This document shows positions 15,772 to 38,325 of a stretch of 64,000 bases of DNA, one piece after another; position 1 is the stretch's first letter, and each line of letters begins with the position of its first letter. The translations under genes were made by a program, and so were the position numbers. The notes under the pieces were generated by a model, which did no database searches, was not told where the DNA came from, and worked only from the letters and a program-made list of their open reading frames with translations. Where the stretch lies: assembly GCF_964355755.1 (NCBI RefSeq), contig NC_092671.1, positions 14,922,501 to 14,986,500 of the forward strand. The letters are read 5' to 3'. Source of the DNA: Antedon mediterranea. Lineage: Eukaryota; Echinodermata; Crinoidea; Comatulida; Antedonidae.

Positions 15772-18625
15772 GTATAGTAAATGTTAACGATTCCTTAAGA
15801 TACACTACTGTAACAAAATTAACAGTAACAGAAATTAAATTTAGAATTGCATTCAACGGCATTGCAATTTCATTTCACCACATTTTTATTTGTTCTCGGT
15901 GATAGTAAATGGTGCAGCGTTTAAAAAAAAAATAGCAATTTCGTGTCATGTTGATAACTGTTTAGGAGCAAATAATGTTTGTAGACAACAGCAACTCAAT
16001 TTGAAGGTGTTTCACAGCAGTGGTAGTAGGGAGAAAACACCCTAAATAAAATACAACCTCAGCAACGAAACAGACCTTTTTATTATGAATAATAGACCTA
16101 AACATTTATATTGCTCAAGCCTAACCAACCCAAGATTTGTTCGAACATGTTTTTGTAACCCTGTACATTATTTTAACAAATTGCATGCATGAGTGAATTT
16201 TGCTAGCCTAGCACCCTCAATTTGTTTTGGTTTTTTTTCCAGTAACAGAAAATCAACAATCTTGAATGCTGACAATTTGTGCTGTGCTTGAAACACAATT
16301 TTTTTTTCCATCTGTATTATAAGATGTTATTTATTTATAGGTTAAACAGACACCCTTGTCCTGGTTTTCTGTTTTTTAGTATTTAATGGTAAAATAAATT
16401 GTGACCTTTTTGGATTTGGTCTGGTTTTTGGAAAAGTTTCATAGACTGCAGTATGGTATTTGTCTGTTATACAGTAGTTCCTAGCGTGTTTTGACTAACA
16501 GTAACATAGACATTTTTACTAGGTTCATACTGTTTTACTCAAAATAAAATTTCAGAAATGAGTTTATTATTTTTTTCTTTCAGAAAATGAAGTCTATAGA
16601 AAAAGTTCATGTTGCCCCTCTTTCATCAAAGAGCATTCCCGCCTTGTTTGCTGTTCCATACAAAGACAAATCTAATGGGTATGCATATTTTTATATTTCA
16701 TTAATATTGTCAGCATTGTCATGTTTTTCAGTAATTTGTCTTTGGATTTATATTTCATTAATAATTGACAATTCGCAATATTGAGTAGGATGTATGCTTT
16801 ACTCTAGGTTTGATGAATTTGAGGGTATTTTGTAATTGTTGGCAATCCAGATATATTAATTCAATGGAAAAAATGGATTTTGTGTTGTTTGTCTATATGC
16901 ACATTTGCTGACATTCTATATTCTAACATCCAATTGATTAGTGATTTCACTAGTGCTATGTTCCAAAATTATAATATGGGGTGTACTGTGCTTCATTACT
17001 AATTCTTCATATAACTTGTAATGTTACTGTATGTTGTTGATATTACAATGTTTGTTTGTTTTATTTATAGGAATCCCAAAAGTATGCGATTATGTAAGAG
17101 AGTTATTTACATAAAAAATGGTATGTCATACAGCAATTATGTTCCAGTAACGCAGGCTGAAGCTGATTCCAAAAATATGTTTGGTATTGAAAGAGTTGTA
17201 AATGTACTGGATGAGAATCATAAATTTAAGCGTCATATGGTTATTAAAAACTGGGTTAACCATGTCAAGCCAGCTAAAGGAAATATTAGCCATATTATAC
17301 CACCTAAAACACATACTAATACACCTTTGGTAGTTTTGCCTGAAAAGTTTGAGGAGATTCCAGTATCTAAACAAATACCACCACAACAGTCCATTCAGAA
17401 AGATAAGTTATTTGTGCAGAGCACTGACTCTCAAGCAAAACACCCTATAAGCCTAGCTAGCCAAACCGTTTCAAATACATCTGAAATTAAAATCACTTCT
17501 GTGTTTTCATTTGCAAGCAAAAATGATTTGGTACAAAATTCAAACAATCCAACAAGTTGTAATGTCCGATCCACTGATTCAAGTGGCAGTTTATTTTTTA
17601 GAAAATCTGCAAATGACAGTTTAAAACAAGTCGTAAGAGAAGAAGTTGTAAATGCAGCTCCAACAAATAACATCCAGTCTCCTGCTTACTTAATAGGTGA
17701 CACACAAAAAACTACATCACCAAATAAAAATATTGAACACTTACTTGCAGCACATTATAGAAAAGGGAACATGATACTTCCCACAGATCATACATACATT
17801 GCTGCCACACATCAACCCATTGTAAACTTTGTTGTAGAACAGAAACCTAATTCACAGAAATATACATTGGGATCAAAACCAGCTAAGCTAGACGAAATAG
17901 TTGATAAGAATTCTAAATTGAAAAGCAAAAAGAAAAAATCAAAGAAGTATGAACACAGAAAACACAAAAGAAGTTCACCGAGAAAGAGAAAGAAAAGAGC
18001 TTATTTTCCACAAATGGAATGTTCCTCTGATTCTGAAGATTCATCACAGAGCAGCGATGCAGAATTAACTAGTCGATCAGCATCTTGCAAAATGTTAAAA
18101 GGAGTTGAGCATGCCCAAATTGAAAATAGACCAGTAAGAAAAAAGAAGATTCCAAGAATGTCATTGCCAATTGGTACAGCATTAACAGATACTGAATCTT
18201 CTTCAGAAACTGAAGAGGAATTAAAGCGTAATAGAATTGTGATAAAAGAGGAACCTATGGATCCCAGTGATGGTTACTTGAATAGTTTTTTAAAGGAACA
18301 ACAGTTAGCAATGAATTCGTTATTAAATCAATCAAATACAAATACGGATTTTCCTCTTGTAATGATAAAAAAGGAACCAGTTTCTGACACTGAAGATTCT
18401 TCAAGTTCCTCACAGATTGTTAGAATAAAAGAAGAACCAGTGTCAGAGGAAGAAGATCAGTTTACTGCGAGAACTGAATCACCACATGAGGAAGACTTAA
18501 GTGAGGTCTGCACATCAAGAGAAGATCGTGTAAAGCAATTAAAAGAACGAATTAAAGAAAAACAGACTGTCTTGGCAGCATTCAGAAAGAGACCTCGTAT
18601 TTCATTGCTTGTTAATAACATTTAA
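15298..18625 (+). CDS. LRIF1-like nuclear protein, three coding exons, 707 residues
   Basis: Coding exons 15298-15771, 16584-16678 and 17071-18625 join in frame (phases 0 and 2; donors GTATAG and GTATGC, acceptors TTTCAG and TTATAG). ATG 15298 is the first after the acceptor at 15227; the reading frame above it is closed by TGA at 15247. Features in order: helical N-terminus (1-125); AEADSKNMFGIERVVNVLD (about 219-237); PLVVL (275-279), a PxVxL motif of the kind that binds the HP1 chromoshadow domain; Lys/Arg-rich NLS (about 473-501); Ser/acidic patches; three IKxE sites (Lys582, Lys623, Lys643), two followed by PxS plus acidic residues; terminal coiled coil RVKQLKERIKEKQTVL. From memory, vertebrate LRIF1 has a similar FG-containing block, an NLS, HP1 binding and a very similar C-terminal coil used with SMCHD1. 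Homology is likely but unproven; the role in silent chromatin is inferred. Confidence 0.75.
16584..16678 (+). CDS. LRIF1-like gene, coding exon 2
   Basis: A 95-bp exon between TTTTTTCTTTCAG and GTATGC encodes KMKSIEKVHVAPLSSKSIP and onward to YKDKSNG. The last codon is split as GG|G, which fits the start of exon 3 at 17071. Confidence 0.7.
17071..18625 (+). CDS. LRIF1-like gene, coding exon 3
   Basis: A 1,555-bp terminal exon after TTTTATTTATAG. It holds the FG block, PxVxL motif, NLS, SUMO-type sites and coiled coil, and ends at TAA 18623-18625. The open frame extends upstream into the intron (from 17021), but the exon 2 to exon 3 phase match shows that the true start is internal. Confidence 0.8.
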
Positions 18626-34273: not shown

Positions 34274-34602
34274 TATATAAATAAAATAACAGCAGAAAAC
34301 TTGGTTATTTCATTGTTTTAATCACTACAAATTTGTTTTATATATATATATATATAAATATATTATTAGAACGATATTATTATTTTAGAAAATATTATCT
34401 CATTACGACAGTATTTACGCCAGTCGGCCAACTAGAAAAAGGCGATATGACGTTACTGTATTGAATACCGTGTCATTATCCAAATTAGAACTTGTTAGAC
34501 TTCTGCAGACCGTCCTCATGGTCGCGTGTCAAGTTAATTAAAGGTCTGTTTGTGACGTATAATGCATTCTAAAGTCAAAAGGATTCTATCTTATTGCAAC
34601 TA

Positions 34603-34765
34603 CTCTCTTATTGTAAACGAGTGAAAACGTCACTCGTTGTGGGGAGTGAAACTGTTTTCACTCTAAAAGAGCGATTTTTCACTCCCCGAGAGTGGTTAAA
34701 ATCGTCTAAAATAATACGAATAGCTGAAAGCAGTTCGCTCCTCGAGAGTGAAAAAAGAGTGACCG
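34603..34765. repeat. Left terminal region of iterated GAGTG/CACTC words
   Basis: About ten copies of GAGTG or CACTC occur within 160 bp, including GAGTGAAAACGTCACTCG and TTTTTCACTCCCCGAGAGTG. The outer 27 bp align with the right end as an inverted repeat. Confidence 0.85.
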
Positions 34766-34862
34766 CGTGAACCAATCAGAGACGCGTATGCAATTTTGGC
34801 GCAATTTTTGTGCTTGATGGGGAGACATTTTGTTTTCACCACCATCGCGTGACATCGTCATC

Positions 34863-37544
34863 ATGGAGGAGTTTCTTCAGAAATTTAGCATTAAAATGAG
34901 ACAATTAAACTGATTGAAGGTAAGAATATTGAATAAGATGATTATTTACAATACTGATAATATAGAGACATATTATATTTGAGAGGCGAGGAAGAAACAT
35001 CAGTAACAAATTTACTGTACACTTTGAAATAATAATCCTTCTAGCCTGAAGGCAGGGCGCGGTCGACCGGTCGCATCCTGTTACCCTTTACTCGCACGTA
35101 CTCGTACGGAGACCGGTCCGGCTGCAGGAGGAGGAATAAACGCAAATAGCATGACAACTTAAGGCCGCACTAGAGCTAGGCCTAGGCCTAGTTAGAAATT
35201 GTCAAAATGCCTACTACTTATAATAGGCATAGGCCTAGCATAGGCTTGTCTATTCTCCTTATGTTATGATGATATTAATTATTTAATAATATTTATTTAA
35301 TATTAATTAATAATTAATATTATTTGTTTTAGGGCCTAAATAAATTAATTGGCCACATTTTTTTATTGGCCTACTACTAGCCTGTACTACTAGCCTGGCT
35401 AAACCTAGCATAGGAAGGAAGGCCTAGCTAGCGATTTTAATTATTATATGCACGATCATGTTAGACCTTTAAATTAGTACTATTTTAAGTAAGTAGGTCT
35501 AGACCTAGGCCAAAAGTGATATGATAACAAAGCCTAGCCTTATAGATAGGCTAGGCTCTAGGCTAGATAGAGTAGTATAAGTATATATTTGTACCTCATT
35601 TAACAAATTTTATAATTATAATTAGTGTTTTCACACAAATGTTCATGCATGATTGCCAATGATGCTGCTCTGTTGCCATTGGCTGTAATGATAATATAGA
35701 AACCAACTGTACTGTAGTTGGAACTTTTAAATACAGTATTCATTGTTTCACTGAGAATGAAATAAAGTTTTAAACAACTATACTAGGCCTAGTTAAGTTA
35801 GACTACACAAATGAGTGTGTGGCAGAAGAAAAATGCTTACAAACTATTTTAGGTCTATATTAGTACTATAGTACAGTATAACACCTTTGATCTTTAAGAA
35901 TGACAGGTTGGGTTATTTATAACTCACTTTGTAAAGACTAAAGAATTTAGAGATCATCTTAATTTACCACACTGTTGATATTACTACTAGTCTTTCTCTC
36001 TGCACCTCTTTAAGGTGATCCCTTAGCTAAGTGTGTACCATATTTGGTAGTGGTCTAAACTGATAAAATGATTATACTCTAGTATAAAGAAAAGATCAAC
36101 TTGGTATAAATACCTTGAAAGCAGTTCTTATTTCCTTTTTGTCAAATACCGTATTAAATTGTTTTAATTTTGTTTTCTTAAATATAAATATTTTTTATTT
36201 AAGATTGAATGGATGAAGTATCACCCAGCTAACCGTGAAAATACTGTGCAGATAAGGACATATTTTAAGGAGACAGCCACCATGAGGTCAACGATCATTA
36301 AAACAAAAAATCCAACAATAACAAAAGTGCTTGAAATGTTTCCACGAATAAAGGACATGCCATGATTGGTAAGATATTTACAATGACAATTTAAGTGTAT
36401 GTATACTGGACCTATGATTTAGTCCTTATCCGAGAAGACTTGTTCTTCCACCAGAACAATGAAGTGACTGAGCCTTGCCAATGTTATGGCTGTGGTTTGT
36501 GGCGCCCCTGCCTTACTGCTTGGCCCCTATACACCTCTCGATATTTGATATGTAACTTAGCACAATGAAATTATTCACATATTTCCACAGATAAATCTTG
36601 ATTTTAAGATCACATATGGAGATGACATTTCAGATGGATTTTTATCTAGATGGAACGTTTTTCTTTTACTGTAAGTATGCTGGCGTGCACAGCCTAGGCG
36701 TAGTACACAGTATTACATTTTAAAAAGACGATTCTTTATCTAAATATTTACAATACCTATTCACAAGTCAAATGGCTTAAATTGAAAAGTTAGGTATATA
36801 AACTAAAAACATAGTACTGATATCTTGTATGTTTATTTACAGGTGACATATGTGCCATAAAGGTTTTAGCCCTGATGCTGCCATCTTCAAATGCACATTG
36901 TACAAAGAAAGGCAAAGGAAAATCAAAAGGAGCCAGTAGGGAAGAGTCACTTGACTACCTTATCCAACATCAACCAGTAAGTAACAAAATAGAAGGTCTT
37001 GTTTAAATAATTCTTGATTCACAAGCAGTAACAATAATTGAGTCATCTTTTGTGCCTAAATAAATTTGCTGTTAACAAGTTTTGTTTCATTCACACATAC
37101 AGTACATTTGTCAAATGTCCTATTATTAATGTCCTATTATGTTTCATCAATTGCGTAGTTTCATTTTTATTTTATGTACCTGGTTTATCAATTATTGACA
37201 TAAAGTACACAAAAATAAATGTACTTTTTATTCTCTTATTTTGATTAAACAAATAAGAACAACGATATTTCTTCTTATTTTTACAGATTGGCACCAGTGT
37301 AGACACGTTTTCCAAAAACAAGAGTGACAAGTTCACTCAACCATTTTTGTTAGCCCTTGGTCCTTCCACAAATCCGGAACAATATTTTCTTGTCTGTGAC
37401 CATTGTGCTACCGAAGCTGGTTCGGCAGTAGTGTTAGCTTTTGATTTAGTTTTTAAGTCATTTTATACTTTTAATGTTTTTTTTCCTGGCTGCCTTTACT
37501 CTTTTTATAGGATCATATATTATTTATTTTTACATAAAATGTAG
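34863..37544 (+). pseudogene. SAMD3-like multi-exon gene, disabled
   Basis: Likely exons: 34863-34919, 36204-36368, 36591-36670, 36843-36976 and 37287-37544, all with GT..AG borders. Exon 1 reads MEEFLQKFSIK, then must shift by one base to reach ETIKLIEG. Exon 2 reads IEWMKYHPANRENT ... EMFPRIKDMP, then TGA (36363-36365) where relatives have Gly, then LI. Exon 3 gives NLDFKITYGDDISDGFLSRW. Exon 4 (LALMLPSS ... ESLDYLIQHQP) is one base out of phase with exon 3. Exon 5 gives QPFLLALG ... AFDLVFKSFYTFNVFFPGCL and ends TAG 37542-37544. From memory, this pattern (FPRLLDTPG.I..DF ... F..KW ... QPYLLA.G ... AFDELFK) marks SAMD3-like proteins that occur in many copies in fish and cnidarians. The middle of the SAM-like part was not found. 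Function is unknown. Confidence 0.65.
36408..36537 (-). mobile_element. tRNA-derived SINE, copy 2, in an intron of the SAMD3-like gene
   Basis: TTTAGTCCTTATCCGAGAAG and GACTTGTTC..CCACCAGAAC match the SINE body at 12.5 kb. The tRNA-like head is present but decayed (GCGCCCCTGCCTTACTGCTTGGCCCC). It sits between splice donor 36369 and acceptor 36590, so it does not interrupt an exon. Confidence 0.7.
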
Positions 37545-37847
37545 TCTGTGACCTTAAATTAGGTCGAAAAAACGTAGAGAATGCAACTTTAAATATTACA
37601 GCCATTTAACGCAAAGGTAAAATACGTACGTAATACATTTTTTAACTTTTGTTTTACTATTGCTTGTTTGGTGTTGTGTATAAAGTCAAAGATTGCCTTA
37701 CATTTATTCCAAATTTGTATTAATCTTTGTATGCTTTAATTAAAAAATTGTCTTTCTTAATATACTTTTCTCTTGATTTTGGTTAATTTTTAAGCACTTA
37801 GTTGCCCAACATATTGTGCTATATTACATTGAACTTTATTATTAATT

Positions 37848-37853
37848 AATAAA
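37848..37853 (+). terminator. Possible polyadenylation signal of the SAMD3-like gene
   Basis: AATAAA about 300 bp after the stop at 37544 and still inside the element. The signal is common by chance in this AT-rich DNA. Confidence 0.3.
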
Positions 37854-38094
37854 TGCTACTATTTTAGTGAAATTAAAGTTTTTTCTATTTCATTTATCCT
37901 GTGTGCGTAATCTGTCATCTACAGCAGTAGTAGTAACAATTTTGCACTATGATAACAAATTAATATTTGATTTTATAATCCATCTTTGGTCGTGTTATTG
38001 TTAGAGATATTTTATACATTGAACCAGCAGATTTAAAGTACTTTTTAAGATTTCACTACAGTACTGCATTTCAAAGAAGTAAAAATACTATAAA

Positions 38095-38323
38095 AGAGTG
38101 AGCTCCCACTCCTTTTAAAGAGTGACTATCACTCTTTATCAAAAGAGTGACAATATTATTTCACTCTTTTTCCACTCTTTTCCCACTCTTTCAAAGAGTG
38201 AATAGTTCCACTTATTTCAAAGAGTGGTTTTCACTCTTTGAAGAGTGGTCCTTAATACCACTCCTCAAAAGAGTGAAAATTCACTCGAAAAGAGTGGATT
38301 TTCACTCTTTTACATTAAGAGAG
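38095..38323. repeat. Right terminal region of iterated AAAGAGTG/CACTCTTT words
   Basis: About eighteen copies of the word occur in alternating orientation within 230 bp. Local hairpins are many, for example TTTCAAAGAGTG next to CACTCTTTG. The density is higher and the copies are more uniform than at the left end. Confidence 0.9.
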
Positions 38324-38325
38324 TA

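Follow-up and report, generated by a model that had tools for sequence, protein, structure and literature searches.

What kind of sequence occupies positions 34601-38325 of a 64,000-nucleotide (nt) stretch of the genome of the crinoid Antedon mediterranea (NC_092671.1, positions 14,922,501 to 14,986,500; hereafter the window, on the contig we call C2), and what does the broken gene inside it do? A first-pass annotation, made from the letters of the window, had described a possible undescribed type of DNA transposon in which iterated short words line both ends around a SAMD3-like gene, the latter being either the mobility factor or steady cargo. We conclude that the segment is a real cut-and-paste DNA transposon, and we consider it somewhat better than an even bet that it is a non-autonomous copy of a two-gene EnSpm/CACTA-like lineage in which the SAMD3-like protein acts as a TNPA-like accessory. 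Mobility is evident from copies with shared ends, 2-bp duplications and related empty sites, and three families have one outer tip and a recurrent SAMD3-like gene. A transposase lies next to SAMD3-like exons at three loci, a linkage established in less depth. The name SAMD3-like is one we presume to be correct; it was returned by no search in this analysis.

The outermost 27 nt of the segment (34601-34627 and 38299-38325) are 93% complementary, and TA is present at both outer edges, as the first-pass annotation had read them. Its arrays of GAGTG/CACTC were found to be dense at each end but unequal, with 8 words over 166 nt on the left and 17 over 235 nt on the right, compared to 63 in the remaining 63,599 nt of the window (Fisher p 1.7e-34 for the two end arrays vs. 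the rest of the window). As single-stranded DNA, the right array folds with z = -11.6, and 0 of 200 shuffles folded equally well. We searched the genome (354 Mb, 18 contigs), scoring only the best candidates. Two full-length 3.7-kb copies, on C7 (99.4% identity) and C9 (98.5%), have ends exactly as in the window within unrelated flanks, and the tip pattern TCACTCNTTTACATTAAGAGAGTA, with up to three mismatches allowed, matched the genome 36 times, compared to 0 matches for the reversed control. Because two near-identical full copies share exact ends and the tip pattern so exceeds its control, the structure is more than chance; the terminal arrays recur elsewhere in the genome, and together, and the earlier proposal of a DNA transposon with iterated words at both ends is borne out. 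That the three family A copies are so nearly identical suggests that they moved recently, by means of proteins acting in trans, and no intact donor element was recognised among the best candidates scored.

Paired tips define two families, A (the window type) and B, the latter ranging from about 1.5 to 4.8 kb with one further element of 18.5 kb on C1. Our set of complete A/B elements, in which both ends were found and the length is >1.4 kb, numbers 11 (the window copy, L009, L010, L030, L034-L039 and L041/L042). In family C, locus L031 (C8) has a CTCTCTTA tip ~0.7 kb downstream of the C-terminal SAMD3-like exon, e10, without a GAGTG array, and this tip region has 12 further genome matches. Family C copies at L073 (two, one cut at the locus edge) and L074-L076 are 2.3-2.4 kb long and 91-98% identical, with ends CTCTCTTAAATTGG...GAATTTAAGAGAG and the subterminal words CGATTG/CAATCG. 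The outer tip CTCTCTTA is common to families A, B and C; across them the tip, the 2-bp duplication and, for family C at least at L031, the SAMD3-like gene are constant, while the subterminal word differs (GAGTG in A/B, CGATTG in C).

Shorter and more divergent tip-bearing sequences were also seen. L018:429-672 (C3:25876428-25876671) is a gene-free segment of ~0.24 kb, bounded by a tip at each end and flanked by CA/TA, resembling a miniature inverted-repeat transposable element derivative, and other short tip matches are present among the search results. Divergent CTCTTTTAA-type tips occur at L046 and L047 (C5:20.95M, 20.99M) and at L048 and L049 (C9:15.47M, 15.54M). Flanking DNA is common within each pair, so these insertions are probably older than local duplications. 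No SAMD3-like match was found at the divergent-tip loci L045-L050.

TA stands on both sides of eight of the 11 complete A/B elements, the others having TA/AG (L030), TA/AC (L038) or an altered right end (L039). L035 and L036 have common flanks and hence represent a single insertion duplicated along with its surroundings. The same dinucleotide flanks 10 of 12 family C copies (7 TA, 2 TG, 1 CT); one of the remaining two is flanked by AC/CA and the other has an end that was not found. The TA target duplication proposed earlier is therefore better described as mostly TA. When the sequences flanking nine insertions were joined and used to search the genome, with 40 of 2,802 candidates scored, related uninterrupted sites were recovered for four (one family A insertion, the C9 copy, and three of family B), each with the single TA at the joint that the first-pass annotation had named as a check. 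The B insertion on C3 has 4 nt missing near the joint relative to its four empty relatives. Among the scored candidates there was no empty site for the other five insertions, the window copy included. Inverted repeats, target duplication, repeated copies and empty sites (4/9), the marks of cut-and-paste movement, were thus all found. TG/TG and CT/CT flanks, together with the single-TA empty sites, rule out TA as part of the element. Since the outer TA is the target duplication, the element proper is CTCTCTTA...TAAGAGAG at 34603-38323, with a 2-bp duplication strongly favouring TA; the borders first drawn at 34601-38325 recur as the ends of full copies but take in the duplicated TA.

The B insertion at L035 (C9:17163500) sits in a high-copy repeat with many uninterrupted genome copies, in which ARAGORN, at its bacterial-code setting, found no tRNA.

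Comparison of copies showed that the SAMD3-like family is multi-exon, with e1 and a second exon, e2, forming a SAM domain, followed by e3-e5, e7-e9 and the C-terminal e10; e2 of the relative L054 matched Pfam SAM_1 over the cut-off (E 3.5e-6). The window copy contains e1, e7, e8, e9 and a cut e10 (Table 1), consistent with the gene remnant first described, and near the left end, as had been noted, a CCAAT box lies at 34772-34776 and a SAM-like frame starts with an ATG at 34863. Splice borders of e7, e9 and e10 are normal, and the window e10 found relatives in addition to itself (self match 9.8e-46). L011 (C4) and L021 have extra DNA at the e10 break, including the missing frame end and stop, and the stretch of L011 with e2-e5 has no counterpart in the window copy. 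The window copy is a broken, internally deleted derivative, and it is non-autonomous because it is without a transposase and parts of the SAMD3-like gene.

Table 1. Features of the element in the window (window coordinates)
Feature	Position	Strand	Basis or remark
Whole element, family A, non-autonomous	34603..38323	+	identical ends in C7 and C9 copies
Target duplication TA	34601-34602 and 38324-38325		2-bp duplication in related insertions
Left terminal inverted repeat, outer CTCTCTTA	34603..34627	+	common to families A, B and C
Right terminal inverted repeat	38299..38323	-	end complementarity and tip search
Left subterminal array	34603..34766	.	GAGTG/CACTC n=8, counted over 34601-34766
Right subterminal array	38090..38323	.	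GAGTG/CACTC n=17, counted over 38091-38325
SAMD3-like e1, first part of SAM domain	34863..34919	+	frame broken relative to L011
SAMD3-like e7	36204..36365	+	ends in a stop absent from L011
SAMD3-like e8	36593..36671	+	approximate borders
SAMD3-like e9	36843..36976	+	relatives and splice borders
SAMD3-like C-terminal e10	37287..37508	+	internal deletion cuts exon at about 37507-37509

Elsewhere in the window, an open frame of 536 amino acids (aa) at 17015-18625 (+) is serine/lysine-rich and may belong to a host gene.

Of the 11 complete A/B elements, 10 contain SAMD3-like exon matches and L034 is the exception; the gene was found across all three families, in keeping with its earlier description as a steady component. 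A query with an exon of the tip-free locus L029 returned 15 SAMD3-like loci at E <= 0.01 among 20 candidates scored, and the CTCTCTTA tip adjoins 13 of them. The e10 match at L031, the family C locus, is strong (1e-11 to 1e-13). For the ratio of nonsynonymous to synonymous differences (pN/pS), frames were chosen by the absence of stops. Close copies gave 0.67 (L011), 0.64 (L021) and 0.81 (L010) from few changes, with no synonymous change in L009, and the older comparison, L020, gave a clearly low 0.25 over a single exon in which codons with stops were skipped. Pfam and PDB searches with the exons other than the SAM exon found nothing, and scans of viral contigs with the SAMD3-like alignment and with one transposase relative gave 55 and 3 pattern matches, none confirmed.

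At L029 itself (C5:10515000-10524900, minus strand), the SAMD3-like exons are open and there is no tip within 9.9 kb, making it a candidate domesticated copy; none of the 22 inverted repeats listed around it forms a pair with a CTCTCTTA-type tip.

Larger relatives carry a second gene that the first-pass annotation, in naming the SAMD3-like gene as the only one inside, had overlooked. In the 18.5-kb B element on C1 (L041/L042), a zinc-finger transposase-type frame split by a Gypsy insertion lies between the tips and is followed by SAMD3-like exons. At this locus, on C4 (L054/L055) and on C10 (L057), a transposase and SAM/SAMD3-like exons occupy the same strand, with the transposase upstream. 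On C4, what remains of the left part of the L011 element has two transposase copies some 9-15 kb upstream of it: an A-like copy (L054/L055) with SAM or SAMD3-like exons following in the same orientation, as at the C10 copy, and a B-like copy followed by the same B-type DNA as on C1. The C1, C4 and C10 copies are only about 48% alike in protein. L056, just right of the C4 element, gave a further 23% match to the transposase; at L077, e10 is accompanied by a related zinc-finger frame (40% over 47 aa, E 9e-10) and by a SAM half-exon (E 0.001); and L051-L053 are distant transposase relatives with 27-35% identity.

L051-L054 retain C(2)C, H(3-4)H and the last E, in the forms CR[LFYT]C and KHH/KQH/KFH..H before FE.KH or YEMKH. 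In hhalign the transposase profile aligned with EnSpm-like frames of the same genome (L058-L060; probability 97.6, E 4e-12, 375 columns). The bridge to EnSpm takes two steps, because L058-L060 were themselves identified via Transposase_21 (E 2.4e-4, just under the cut-off) and DUF4218 (one over the cut-off, the rest under). Pfam gave no Transposase_21 match in these transposases and no DUF4218 match in L051 or L041, and PDB profile searches with both transposase sets returned nothing credible. By its motifs, the transposase bears the marks of the known EnSpm/CACTA-like (CMCT) clade, and "undescribed transposon type" was consequently too strong a term.

Two of these loci hold further frames. 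On C1, L041:4229-4543, upstream of the transposase, contains FPKLKNAGGFE...YLRPIQ and is possibly a further gene, which we take to resemble the start of G2/M-phase E3 ligase-like proteins; part of this upstream region (a SAM half-exon and the L041:4229-4543 frame) is also found in the complete element L034. The C4 cluster (C4:12353500-12379500; L054, L055, L011, L056) contains two transposase copies, two sets of SAMD3-like exons and the frames L055:2104-3856 and L011:1799-2412.

We propose that larger members encode a C2H2 zinc-finger transposase and then, downstream on one strand, a multi-exon SAM-domain SAMD3-like gene. The transposase would recognise and cut at CTCTCTTA and insert mostly at TA. 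The SAMD3-like protein, possibly polymerised along the arrays through its SAM domain, would bind the iterated subterminal words (GAGTG in A/B, CGATTG in C) and bring the ends together or regulate them, as TNPA does in En/Spm. The window copy, having kept its ends, could be moved by proteins supplied in trans. We assign the SAMD3-like protein to the TNPA-like role because it is the most regular other gene in the elements, and family C, in which tip and gene are kept and the words changed, is as expected if a word and its binding protein diverge together. More tentatively, and at something short of an even chance, the elements may form a distinct TA-preferring animal EnSpm-like lineage in which a SAM-domain protein is the end-array-binding subunit and the word switches while the cleavage tip stays fixed.

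The main rival to a TNPA-like role accepts the same transposon and transposase and makes the SAMD3-like protein a steady passenger or regulator with no end-binding activity; it might, for instance, act on chromatin or against silencing and so aid persistence of the element. Fungal EnSpm, ESTA, Plavaka and other elements offer a precedent, encoding TET/JBP dioxygenases thought to be anti-silencing (PMC12730594, in excerpt), and the SAMD3-like exons scanned revealed a SAM domain only, with no DNA-binding domain recognised. However, families A and B have the arrays and the gene jointly, and C combines an unchanged outer tip with different words; we regard a passenger role as rather unlikely. Alternatively, the zinc-finger transposase could be a neighbour or nested element, with another enzyme, such as a Tc1/mariner-like one, moving the tips and the SAMD3-like gene captured once. 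The TA preference does resemble Tc1/mariner, and paired tips enclose just one transposase copy, in an insertion-filled element; but the order of transposase then SAM/SAMD3-like exons on one strand is repeated on C1, C4 and C10 in copies with ~48% protein likeness, and the B-type transposase on C4 precedes the same B-type DNA as on C1. The TG and CT duplications of family C do not fit a strict-TA enzyme, nor does a single capture fit a gene present in three diverged families, which together make this scenario improbable. That the SAMD3-like protein is itself the recombinase, the mobility factor of the first-pass annotation, appears very improbable. Apart from the SAMD3-like gene, no coding remnant was recognised in the complete A and C copies read, yet no recombinase-like domain matched the exons scanned, and we rejected this candidate given the separate transposase, with catalytic-type motifs, linked to the gene and lying upstream of it in larger or broken copies.

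Several observations weigh against the reading that we prefer, a transposase partnered by a SAMD3-like end-binder. Only on C1 does the transposase lie between paired tips, in an element complicated by Gypsy and long interspersed nuclear element insertions; the C4 cluster is rearranged, and the C10 copy is about 30 kb from a family A tip. No clearly intact transposase was present among the copies read: the C1 copy keeps C(2)C and H(3-4)H and has lost the last E, and DUF4218 matches fall below the Pfam cut-off in L054 (E 0.019), L053 (0.12) and L052 (0.16). Gene order is not uniform, since on C1 the transposase is also preceded by a SAM half-exon (L041:2545-2646), and no SAMD3-like exon was found in the 4-4.5 kb read at L051-L053. 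On the side of the SAMD3-like gene, L034 gave no exon match, L029 (C5) and L077 (C2:32817573) have no tip, and the sole match in family C copies other than L031 is a weak one to e10 (tblastn E 0.003, against a small set). The CGATTG array is likewise sparse in family C copies, with 4 words at one end and 1 at the other, and L031 has 3.

SAMD3-like genes are numerous in fish and cnidarians, and animal genome annotations treat the family as puzzling multi-copy host genes. Our results suggest that a multi-copy SAMD3-like animal gene can be a transposon helper rather than an ordinary host gene, which would give the family a concrete identity. If the more tentative reading of a distinct animal lineage holds, the numerous fish and cnidarian genes would be transposon accessory genes, and tip-free copies such as L029 would be candidates for domestication. 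The design would be a two-gene one, like TNPD plus TNPA, whose second protein is unrelated. With three families in one genome, one can test whether end words and an end-binding protein evolve jointly, and a search rule for other genomes follows: look for a SAMD3-like C-terminal exon next to a tip of the CTCTCTTA type that bears a 2-bp duplication. The transposase clade (CMCT) is already known. Among the titles and abstracts listed in searches of the open-licence PMC literature, none paired SAMD3 or a SAM domain with transposons or described these termini and the word switch.

How, then, do these elements compare with known systems? They resemble Tc1/mariner in their mostly TA duplications and differ in the TG and CT duplications of family C, in the other clade of the linked transposase and in the word arrays at their ends. 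Strict Tc1/mariner membership was rejected on the TG/TG flanks of two family C copies and the CT/CT flanks of one. As excerpted, PMC12730594 defines the CMCT clade by C(2)C and H(3-4)H type motifs and target duplications of 2-5 bp, with 5'-CA..TG-3' termini in most cases, common and not required; here the duplication is 2 bp and the termini are CT..AG. Two fungal members described in the same excerpt share CMCT-type motifs with our elements: ESTA, with TA duplications, and PlavakaA, with 2-bp duplications and termini TGT..ACA vs. CT..AG here. ESTA differs in its fungal rather than animal host, and no SAMD3-like gene is mentioned for it in that excerpt. As for the TA duplication of ESTA, families A and B show it, and among the 12 family C copies 7 have TA, 2 TG and 1 CT.

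EnSpm/CACTA proper has CAC.. termini, a CACTA tip and a 3-bp duplication, vs. CTCTCTTA and 2 bp here, and no Transposase_21 or DUF4218 match over the Pfam cut-off was obtained in our transposase. Strict CACTA membership was rejected on the tips and the 2-bp duplication, and the second gene is TNPA or TNP1 there and SAMD3-like here. In CACTA elements the transposase cuts a conserved outer repeat, TNPA/TNP1 bind less conserved subterminal words, and words and binding proteins have been argued to diverge together (PMC2613891, in the portion consulted). The elements described here resemble En/Spm, Tam1 and soybean Tgmt* in having a conserved outer repeat with less conserved subterminal words in both orientations. 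They also have a transposase profile that aligns with EnSpm-like frames of their own genome, deletion derivatives, and what may be the same two protein functions, a TNPD/TNP2-type transposase and a TNPA/TNP1-type end-binder.

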